This document shows, one piece after another, positions 1,098-26,516 of a stretch of DNA of 64,000 nucleotides. The position numbers and the translations under genes were made by a program. The notes below the pieces were generated by a model, which searched no databases, was not told the origin of the DNA, and saw only the letters and a program-made list of their open reading frames with translations. Source of the DNA: Fodinibius sediminis (lineage in GTDB: Bacteria; Bacteroidota; Rhodothermia; Balneolales; Balneolaceae); NCBI RefSeq assembly GCF_900182555.1, contig NZ_FXTH01000001.1:248001-312000 (forward strand). Reading direction: 5' to 3'. Positions within the stretch are counted from its first letter, which is position 1, and every line of letters begins with the position of its first letter.

Positions 1098-1765
1098 AAA
1101 TTACCTCATTATTTGTTAACAATTTGATTGACTGAACTGCAAAAGGAAGTATAATATAACATAGCCCTGATATATTACTGATTGTCCCCTTTTAAGTTCA
1201 TCTATGCCCTAAGGGGCGAATAAGTGACCTTCTATAATAAAAAGTCATTAACGCCGTTAAGTTAGTTTATTAAACCTAAAGTTGAAAGTGTTTTTTTACA
1301 CAAAAATAGCACTCCCTTAACAATAGAGCTCAAAATAAGGCTCTGACTTAGTTATTTTGGCAATCACGGAAAATCAGGTGTTTTATCCTCATATATTAAT
1401 GTAGTGGTGGCAAATTATGTTAGTGAGTGTACGATTATCCCCCCACAGGTTGCCCTTCCCACGGCCCAGCCTCTTCATCCCTCCAGTCCAGCCACCGCCC
1501 CGTACTAACCACATGGTTATGAAAACGATGCAAGCGAGCAGTCTATTTTATTAACTATATGGTTGGTTATTTTCTGGAGGCTACACAATTCATCGCATGC
1601 CCGTAGCCTGTTCTTTTTCCTTTAGCAAAATTGCTGCAATTTCACCGGATGGGCAACAGATAATCAGTCAGGATAAAACAAGGACTCCCAAAAACCAAGG
1701 CCAGGTGGAGGCGGGTAATGTCAGCCTGAATGCGGCCGGATACCTTTCTCCTTATTATTTGATCC

Positions 1766-1781
1766 TTCCGAAGCCTCGGAA
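1766..1781. repeat. Hairpin of dispersed repeat, copy 1 (TTCCGA-4-TCGGAA)
   Basis: Six-base arms around the loop AGCC. About 38 bases here, from TTGATCCTTCCGA into CGGAATTCAT and beyond, match the reverse complement of 25700-25737. Both arms are identical in the two copies while the four loop bases differ. The function is unknown. Confidence 0.5.
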
Positions 1782-1857
1782 TTCATTATTTCAAAATGCA
1801 ATAAGAAGATGCTCATTTACCATGGCTCTAATCTAAATTAATTCCTTTTTTTATATA

Positions 1858-1883
1858 GCACCTTTTGAATGGTCAAAAGGTGC
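1858..1883. repeat. Perfect 11-bp inverted repeat
   Basis: The arms GCACCTTTTGA and TCAAAAGGTGC flank the loop ATGG. A T-rich run (CTTTTTTTATATAG) lies immediately before it on the + strand, not after it, so it does not fit an intrinsic terminator in either direction. It could be a protein-binding site or a remnant of a mobile-element end. Confidence 0.5.
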
Positions 1884-2051
1884 GTAAAAACCACCGCCTG
1901 AACCTGCTTCGGCGCACGGGATCGCTCGCTGCGGAAATAAATGAAGATGTTGATTTTTCTATAGCTTCAACCCACCTGTTGCTATGGAACACTCACTGCC
2001 TTTGCCACCGCTTCCCCATTTATTTCTTCTTCGCAGCTCCCGCTCCCTATT

Positions 2052-2084
2052 CACGCCTCACCAGTCAAGGCCGGCTGTTGGGGA
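2052..2084. repeat. Dispersed repeat block, copy 1 (inverted match after mutS)
   Basis: This 33-bp block (CACGCCTCACCAGTCAAGG and onward to TTGGGGA) matches the reverse complement of 25649-25682 with about three differences and a one-base gap. Inside it CAGTC and GGCTG can pair around AAGGCC with one G-T wobble; the other copy has CAGCC/GGCTG, so pairing is preserved. It is not part of any gene. Confidence 0.5.
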
Positions 2085-2456
2085 AGCTTACAGTTCAATC
2101 TTTAACCATGACTGAAATTCTTCCGGTGGGTTTACCGCTTTCAGTAAGGAGTAATCAGGGGTTTGGGGCTACAACCAACAACATATAGTTAAATGATTCT
2201 AGCGACGTGAGCCACGGCAGGGTGCCGAAGCTTTCTCAGCCGGCGACGTTTTTGGGTTCCCCAGCTTTGCTGGTCCCGCGCTTACGGGATGCGTCGTTCC
2301 AAAAATGGAACAAGAACATGTTCATTCAAAAAAGGAACATCCCTTGAGCGATAAAAAATGGACAAGCGTATGGTATTAATTCAAAGTGAGGAAAGAAATA
2401 AATGATTTGCCCACCCAGGTCGGCAGTCTGGGTAGCCTTGATCCAAGGCTTATCCT

Positions 2457-25592: not shown

Positions 25593-25648
25593 GAGGCGAG
25601 CCTGTCTGTGATGGCTGCAGAAGATATGTTGGATGTTGAGAATCAATA

Positions 25649-25682
25649 TCCCCAAACAGCCGGCCTTGGCTGGTAAGGCGTG
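25649..25682. repeat. Dispersed repeat block, copy 2 (inverted)
   Basis: Its reverse complement begins CACGCCTTACCAGCCAAGG and ends TTTGGGGA, matching 2052-2084 at about 30 of 33 positions. It contains the CAGCC/GGCTG dyad. Confidence 0.5.
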
Positions 25683-25713
25683 GGAAGGGTACTTCCATTT
25701 TTTCAATCATGAA

Positions 25714-25729
25714 TTCCGAATGCTCGGAA
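25714..25729. repeat. Hairpin of dispersed repeat, copy 2 (TTCCGA-4-TCGGAA)
   Basis: The same six-base arms as 1766-1781, with the loop ATGC on this strand. Flanking bases also match copy 1 in the opposite orientation. Confidence 0.5.
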
Positions 25730-25802
25730 GGGTCAAGCCAAAAGTGGTCTATATAAAAAGAATATTCATATTATAAGAAAGAGAAACAGGTAACACATCA
25801 AC

Positions 25803-26162
25803 TGATGCGTTCTTTTGTAAGGTTACCCGGCGGACGCAATAATGTATTTTCAAGCTCTGGCGAGAAATCTCCTATTATCCGGGTACTGCGGACCTCCAGA
25901 CGGTAGGTTCCGGCGGACAGGCTCCCGGAGTTCGCAAGGCCAGTGTCTTCTGCGGCAAAGTAGTTGGGAGGAAAGCGATCGCATCACATAATCCACCATC
26001 TTTGGGCAAGGATTTTTTAGTATTGCTGGTGCTGCAGGCAGAACGTATCCTGCTTCCTGCCCCTCCTGCGAATGAGTGCCTGCAAGCTGCTGTGTCGATG
26101 GCTGGAACAAAGGATGAAAGCCGACAAGTGAAATATCGAATTTTATGATTCATGCTGATTTA
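25803..26162 (-). pseudogene. Decayed minus-strand coding remains, family unassigned
   Basis: Two coding-like fragments. One ends at the TAA at 26162-26160: a frame reading FLDSGGPLDTNGEILPGEGG and QEDWAD before the stop, with an in-frame TAA about 27 codons upstream. Nine bases later an ATG (26153) opens a second frame that loses sense after about 35 codons; in another frame, YFAAEDTGLANSGSLSAGTY and RLEVRSTRIIGDFS run to a stop at 25803. The latter resembles the C-terminal AGTYRLRxxALRxFGD strands of some subtilisin-like proteases, but the match is weak. No intact product is possible. Confidence 0.35.
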
Positions 26163-26516
26163 ATCGGCCCAGTCCTCCTGACCTCCTTCACCAGGGAGGA
26201 TCTCACCGTTTGTATCGAGGGGCCCGCCAGAGTCTAAAAATTACTCCCTGCCAATGTTGGCGGCAGCCGGTATGCTCGGCCCAAGCACCATCCCACGCCT
26301 GCATCCCGGATGGTCCAGGGCAAGCCGGATGCATCCACGGCTGGTTACCGGCCATCCGTGGGCGTCGAAAACAGGTAATGAGAATCCCCGATAAAACTGA
26401 TATCTTCACAAAGATTGTTGTAATCCCGATATTACGCCAGTTACTTAGTCATTAATCCAGCAAAACGCAACGCTATCCAGACTTCTGCCAAATATATCGC
26501 CGACCGCATTCGCCTG

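Follow-up and report, generated by a model that had tools for sequence, protein, structure and literature searches.

Decayed fragments of mosaic arrays of a covarying hairpin repeat family in the intergenic DNA of Fodinibius sediminis

The window analysed here is a 64,000-nt stretch of the Fodinibius sediminis genome (C1:248001-312000; 4.43 Mb in 50 contigs) that contains two gene-poor scars, one near its start (scar 1, 1.8-2.1 kb) and one at 25.6-25.75 kb (scar 2). Scar 1 holds a folded repeat, element A (1858..2085, plus strand; model R1 and alignments), which consists of a hairpin h1, an inverted-repeat stem whose left and right arms enclose a 73-nt loop, and a terminal hairpin. Hairpin h1 (GCACCTTTTGA-ATGG-TCAAAAGGTGC, 11 bp; 1858..1883, plus strand) was recognised by comparison of copies and by a search with model R3, and the two sides of the main stem by covariation: GCTGCG plus GAAATAAATG on the left (1928..1943, plus strand), and CATTTATTTC, a 5-nt bulge (TTCTT) and CGCAGC on the right (2017..2037, plus strand). 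Together, the arms form a long, imperfect inverted repeat built around GAAATAAATG/CATTTATTTC in which one side alone carries the 5-nt bulge. The terminal hairpin, CAGTC..GGCTG, lies at 2062-2077 (plus strand; alignments).

A preliminary description of this DNA had reported that two short blocks recur in opposite orientation in the two scars. For the 33-bp block (2052..2084, plus strand), identified by blastn, shuffles and alignment as the 3' end of element A, the inverted recurrence was borne out: it matches the reverse complement of 25649-25682 (91% over 32 nt by blastn, whole-genome E 1.2e-4 and 8e-5), and the scars compared in inverted orientation reached a local score of 51, against 22 on the same strand and a peak of 31 among 300 Markov-shuffled pairs. 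The matching part of scar 2 is the 3' end of element A in reverse (25628..25707, minus strand; blastn and repeat comparison). The reported G-T wobble does keep the terminal hairpin paired, with T at the fourth base in scar 1 (CAGTC..GGCTG) and C in scar 2 (CAGCC..GGCTG), and the spacing of the blocks differs between the scars as described. The second, hairpin block (1757-1800 versus the reverse complement of 25700-25737) stood in part: both places share TTCCGA-N4-TCGGAA, but their similarity by itself is weak (79% by blastn, genome E 0.29-0.43) and alone is not significant.

The core of this block is the hairpin TTCCGA-AGCC-TCGGAA (1766..1781, no strand assigned; pattern search and the weak blastn match to scar 2), and its counterpart in scar 2 is TTCCGA-ATGC-TCGGAA (25714..25729, no strand assigned; pattern search); read in the same sense, all four loop bases do differ (AGCC against GCAT). 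Hairpins of the form TTCCGA-N(3-6)-TCGGAA occurred nine times in 562,924 genome bases examined (stretches chosen around arrays, plus the window), and all nine fell within 26,893 bases marked by hand as array; two are the window sites, one lies in the array library and six lie outside the sequence that defined the arrays. Their loops come in six versions as read, or five when strand is ignored, with the arms fixed by the search pattern, and support for conservation of this hairpin consists only of these nine copies with varying loops. A 21-mer overlapping the scar 2 hairpin (25724-25744) has four exact matches elsewhere in the genome. At L061:6100, a TTCCGA hairpin replaces the second arm of another hairpin module, GCCTTTTGGCTTGA (L061:12050), which was also seen by eye in the DUF1456/ABC-F gap of another species (G008).

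Additional array modules were recognised in both scars. On its minus strand, module M2 (2162..2313, minus strand; blastn) is similar to the 5' half of this element design, and it contains the hairpin pair CCAGC..GCTGG / CCCG..CGGG; judged by eye, it looks related to the hairpin family, and a blastn query of 2160-2390 found matches, most of them short, in 9 of 12 genomes of the genus (E<=0.01). A further module of scar 1 (GATAAAAAATGGACAAG...; 2339..2397, plus strand) was found by blastn and repeat comparison. The minus strand of 1770..1883 may, tentatively, represent a third, decayed element that lies upstream of h1 and shares h1 with element A (R3, 14.4 bits, E 0.12). Scar 2 also contains a T-rich block with one h1 arm, which precedes h1 in arrays (25738..25829, minus strand, ends approximate; blastn), and a CTCC/GGAG palindromic module that is present in C19 arrays as well (26170..26205, minus strand; repeat comparison).

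The preliminary description had been staked on further copies in the genome, and many were found. With scar 1 as query, genome blastn at E<=10 gave 131 matching pieces, and with scar 2 it gave 83; both counts include the query places and many short or chance pieces. Strong scar 1 matches concentrate on contigs C19 (10-22 kb and 46-59 kb) and C12 (81-88 and 97.6-98.8 kb), with further matches on C4, C5, C6 and C25. The arrays occupy gaps between larger genes, and on C19 they fill these gaps (1.3-2.6 kb each); within 12.5 kb of array, 21 overlapping families of direct repeats were reported. Both scars are decayed fragments of such mosaic intergenic arrays, in which folded repeats of a single family are the main building blocks; neither the larger arrays nor the extension of the family past the genus was visible to the preliminary description. 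Some small open reading frames overlap array repeats, which argues for caution in calling such frames genes. The arrays also contain several apparently unrelated repeat families, and a palindromic module, CTCCAAGAG..CTCCTTGGAGAAGGAGGACAGGAGG (L061:7370, L061:12577), recurs by eye in the DUF1456/ABC-F gap of a relative (G001, L246).

Element A is about 250 bp long, and model R1 found 22 matches in the F. sediminis genome, one of them with a shortened loop, which is a lower bound because the R1 search scored a limited number of candidates. The h1 arms of other copies read CCACTTTTGG/CCAAAAGTGG or GCCCCTTTTGA/TCAAAAGGGGC, i.e., several compensating versions, and a GCTTCGGC word, possibly a cUUCGg loop, is present in 24 of 26 aligned copies. 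A coding origin was rejected, given the indels of one and two bases that separate copies. In a search of 92 family genomes, strong R1 matches were confined to F. sediminis, G005 and F. roseus/G011, and an exact gapped A pattern matched 3 of 128 genomes of the order (F. sediminis, G005 and G011). Genome G011 shares the same A copy with F. roseus DSM 21986 (L078), a species that NCBI places in the Balneolaceae. One A copy had no match among plasmids and phages, and the exact A pattern had none in viral contigs. In genome contigs, a first exact A pattern had no match and a second matched F. roseus and Melioribacter; the Melioribacter match (L079) was rejected by eye as chance, being without the outer stem or further likeness.

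Weak R1 matches (E 0.002-0.009), seven in number, all lay in five further genomes of the same genus, and model R2 was built from them. These seven seed sequences have one architecture, each spanning 145 nt between chosen landmarks, and they represent a wider family for which we coined the label BHE (Balneolaceae hairpin element). The basic unit of about 145 nt comprises a 5' AT-rich hairpin (h1), an A-rich linker, a stem, a loop and a 3' tail, ACCCC; the stem has 11 pairs (CTG.GGGAATYG / CRATTCCC.CAG) and closes a loop of about 75 nt in which the words AGATnTTGT and TTCCCG are kept. Among 43 copies, 42 have AGAT, 31 have TTCCCG and 29 have the ACCCC tail. Array module B of F. sediminis, on the strand opposite A, matches R2 over its full length, and R2 recovers B-type copies of this genome with E-values down to 6e-18; many B copies carry two extra hairpins inserted in the h1 loop. 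Element A and its array partner B are assigned by these models to one family of about 145 nt.

All 12 genomes of this salt-loving genus contained R2 matches, with 1 to 35 per genome at E<=0.01, counts that include fragments and A cores. Across the 128 genomes of the order, the same threshold gave R2 matches in 26: 25 belong to the family, and the remaining one, from elsewhere, matched at E 0.0099. Among 244 genomes of the class, the wider model R3 matched 44 at E<=0.001, of which 32 belong to the family and 12 do not, and 27 at E<=1e-5, all in the same family and from 10 genera; the E-values of covariance models are rough owing to shortened calibration and strict filters. We treat the 12 genomes outside the family as doubtful, with E no better than 4e-5 and most matches under 100 nt. 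Rfam 15 gave no match up to E 1 in 66 kb of F. sediminis array regions, and Rfam gave none up to E 0.1 over 14 loci of relatives.

The pairing of these elements is kept while their sequence changes. In F. sediminis the six-base stem reads GCTGCG/CGCAGC, in place of which G005 has GGTACG/CGTACC and F. roseus has GGCACG/CGTGCC; single mismatches or wobbles number four across 27 copies. In 26 A copies, 11 cells were changed on both sides compared with 1.8 in shuffles, a count in which the F. roseus row is misaligned by one base and so counts against the stem, and which omits one G005 copy that carries a deletion. For 27 A copies, the covariation term computed by RNAalifold was almost nil (0.1 kcal/mol), and 5 of 30 pairs were doubly changed. 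In the MAFFT alignment of the seven seed sequences, which was not fitted to structure, a structure obtained by folding one of them pairs 90.0% of cells (shuffles, 83.9%; slid partners, 42-57%), and 7 pairs show double changes (3.6 shuffled); the 14 pair types are not unusual, with 103 of 500 shuffles as high. For the 43 model-aligned copies, whose mean pairwise identity is 61%, 92.5% of cells pair, 22 of 23 pairs show double changes, and doubly changed cells number 129 against 29.4 +/- 4.3 in shuffles (0 of 500 as high) and 10-20 with partners slid, figures that lean upward because the alignment is structure-fitted and copies within a genome are related. The identity and fold of BHE, taken alone, are in our view highly probable. 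The preliminary description had read preserved pairing as selection for structure or as the mark of a dispersed element, and our data support both alternatives: the stem variants and the doubly changed pairs of the family model bear on structure, and at least 22 copies of subfamily A in F. sediminis, with relatives throughout the genus, bear on dispersal.

Folding of one A copy outperformed shuffles on either strand (z -3.04 and -3.09). On the model strand, A-C mismatches outnumber G-T mismatches 43 to 13, or 11 to 9 in the main stem alone, and 27 of the 43 A-C cells fall in two h1 columns. A call of the RNA strand from these counts was abandoned, with no clear signal outside h1.

Element presence differs between species. 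The elements in the DUF1456/ABC-F gaps of G001 and G008 share their position and orientation, that of G002 is inverted, and in G004 only a hairpin-like trace scores (53-63 nt, 21 bits); a site and orientation shared by two species are also compatible with a functional RNA inherited vertically. No match to the array library (best E 0.21) and no R3 element was found in three gaps of relatives, RluB-TBDT in F. roseus and mutS-GntR in both G005 and F. roseus, and these gaps align with the scars at one flank only, being too diverged for insertion boundaries. Target-site duplication was not detected at 43 copies, a few of which have uncertain ends: the mean longest flanking direct match was 3.40 compared with 3.52 in shuffles, 166 of 200 of which were at least as high. 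Among the flanks of the 43 copies, T directly precedes the element in 70%, and a AAACCGTAAAGTT-like motif follows the ACCCC tail after a few to about 14 nt at loci of several species (L193, L194, L195, L200, L201, L216 and L218), suggesting that the true 3' end may be further out. The F. sediminis genome had no match to the Y1 transposase family (PF01797, Y1_Tnp) at E<=0.01; 6 of 14 controls did.

Eight of nine stretches with several copies (two of the nine adjoin) hold a single orientation throughout, a pattern indicative of local amplification. Such uniformity is not the general rule, since A and B are opposite within F. sediminis arrays and the B copy at 97.9 kb on C12 is opposite to the B copies on C19. 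A bias relative to the replication strand was considered for element A, which looked biased on C1, C4, C12, C19 and C25, and was rejected: C5 disagreed, and the wider family, placed by GC skew, has 22 copies with and 11 against replication, or 10 stretches to 8, so that no replication bias is claimed.

Most A copies cluster by a low-GC capsule locus or a Gabija-like locus. The array clusters of C19 flank the former (GC 0.33), which encodes NeuB, Capsule_synth, sulfotransferases and Wzz and which was likely acquired horizontally; this low-GC stretch comprises L070 and the ends of L061 and L062 (C19:25-45 kb). Those of C12 flank GajA, a GajB-like C-terminal open reading frame and an HNH gene. 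In this Gabija-like pair (L063:11803-14636), the 280-aa GajB frame matches only the C-terminal part of the GajB profile (e.g., 403-662 of 663), so the helicase looks truncated. The genes scanned around the F. sediminis arrays are of ordinary kinds and lie in both orientations. In a neighbour scan of relatives that excluded G004, polysaccharide genes lay beside 3 of 5 A copies in G005, the element locus of G010 held export/capsule genes (export, UDP-glucose dehydrogenase, UDP-GlcNAc epimerase and WecG), and rhamnose synthesis genes adjoined the element in G006. Scanned neighbours in seven genomes (G001, G002, G003, G007, G008, G013 and G021) were mostly ordinary enzymes and transporters, along with an ABC-F protein, a Fic protein, glycosidases and a restriction-type methylase, and G009 and G075, each scanned at a single neighbour, gave no Pfam match. 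By this inspection, capsule, O-antigen or defence loci lie by elements in four genomes and ordinary genes elsewhere. F. sediminis (G000) and G010 have the WecA-like and UDP-glucose dehydrogenase genes in different order, and arrays or elements lie close to the junctions.

We found no earlier description of BHE in the literature searched, the scope of which left aside subscription journals and preprints. Among the known systems compared, meningococcal NIMEs appear to resemble BHE arrays most. In the account given by PMC3898611, NIMEs (dRS3 plus RS repeats) are mosaic intergenic arrays of 200-2700 bp near genes for cell-surface proteins, and dRS3 repeats are 20 bp long with inverted ends of 6 bp (ATTCCC N8 GGGAAT), their most abundant type being a phage integration site. 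The arrays described here likewise mix short repeats that fill intergenic gaps; unlike dRS3, BHE is a two-helix covarying fold of about 145 nt, and its arrays carry TTCCGA(N3-6)TCGGAA hairpins. BHE also shares with REPs and BIMEs an intergenic, palindromic, high-copy character (PMC3733652). REPs are described there as repeats of 20-40 bp with a GTAG or CGTC end tag, the CGTC type being without associated transposase genes, whereas the BHE unit is about 145 nt long and has neither tag within 8 nt of either end (0 of 43). A REP mobilised by a RAYT was rejected on the absence of end tags in 43 copies and of a Y1 transposase from the F. sediminis genome.

The reading that best explains the whole of these data, to which we assign a probability of roughly 60%, is that BHE arrays arose by fold-recognised, non-autonomous spread with local pile-up and recombination around variable loci. 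BHE would be a non-autonomous repeat whose putative mobilising enzyme sees the fold on a single DNA strand or as RNA; copies would then accumulate locally, and the arrays would provide homology and serve as recombination substrates by variable loci (capsule, O-antigen and defence), comparable to the role suggested for meningococcal NIMEs. Compensating arm changes, conserved loop words and absent target duplication would follow because the fold itself is recognised. We infer both this mobility and exchange at the arrays. A bolder form of the idea, in which BHE is a new type of SINE-like mobile element that is recognised by its fold, involves neither Y1 transposase nor target-site duplication and is copied by way of a single-stranded or RNA intermediate, with arrays as exchange joints that reshuffle Balneolaceae capsule and defence genes, strikes us as speculative and rather unlikely.

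The main rival holds that BHE is a family of functional small RNAs or cis-regulatory RNAs, multiplied by duplication and acting in trans or as leaders. Covariation with conserved loop words, presence in all 12 genomes of the genus, one copy whose site is shared by two species and the possible cUUCGg loop of most A copies would all suit such an RNA, as would the excess of A-C over G-T mismatches, as if the opposite strand were RNA; but that excess is concentrated in two h1 columns and nearly vanishes in the main stem, and the two strands of the A copy fold about equally. Together with 1-35 matches per genome at patchy sites, neighbours of many kinds and orientations, and the lack of Rfam matches in F. 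sediminis arrays or relatives' loci, this leads us to think a functional RNA unlikely. Chance similarity of two AT-rich gaps, which the non-significant hairpin block alone would allow, is already refuted by the shuffles, the genome copies, the nine hairpins that all lie in arrays and the family-wide covariation.

MITEs and Correia elements are short, non-coding, multicopy sequences with inverted-repeat structure, and BHE is like them in each respect. An ordinary MITE, i.e., a deletion derivative of a DDE transposon moved by the transposase of that transposon, would also be expected to be intergenic and variable between species; we consider this origin quite improbable for BHE, which has no target-site duplication, has arms that covary in compensating pairs instead of forming fixed, sequence-read terminal repeats, and met no parent transposon among the neighbouring genes scanned. 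Integron attC sites are imperfect hairpins with core boxes in which the fold is kept rather than the sequence, and BHE likewise keeps its fold while its sequence varies. A structure-recognised recombination site of this sort, shuffling neighbouring genes, would accord with arrays that lie between genes and with the differing WecA-like/UDP-glucose dehydrogenase order of G000 and G010, but attC core sites (RYYYAAC or GTTRRRY) were found in the expected places in 0 of 43 copies and the genes between arrays are ordinary and in both orientations, leaving this the more far-fetched of the two. An integron cassette array on C19 was rejected on the same observations.

Intergenic folded repeats are known in many bacteria, and BHE adds a covarying fold of about 145 nt in ten genera. 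Its arrays by capsule and defence loci in several species, without a known mobilising enzyme, provide a useful test case, and the covariance model and first copy census supplied here make selection for the structure of a repeat, rather than its sequence, directly testable. Proteins of the HU-type DNA-binding / DUF4469 kind adjoin repeats in F. sediminis (L062:6725-7429) and G005 (L152:4843-5541), possibly by coincidence. In an O-antigen ligase gene cluster of G005, a large DUF285 repeat protein (L148:8970-10691) is encoded beside an element copy.
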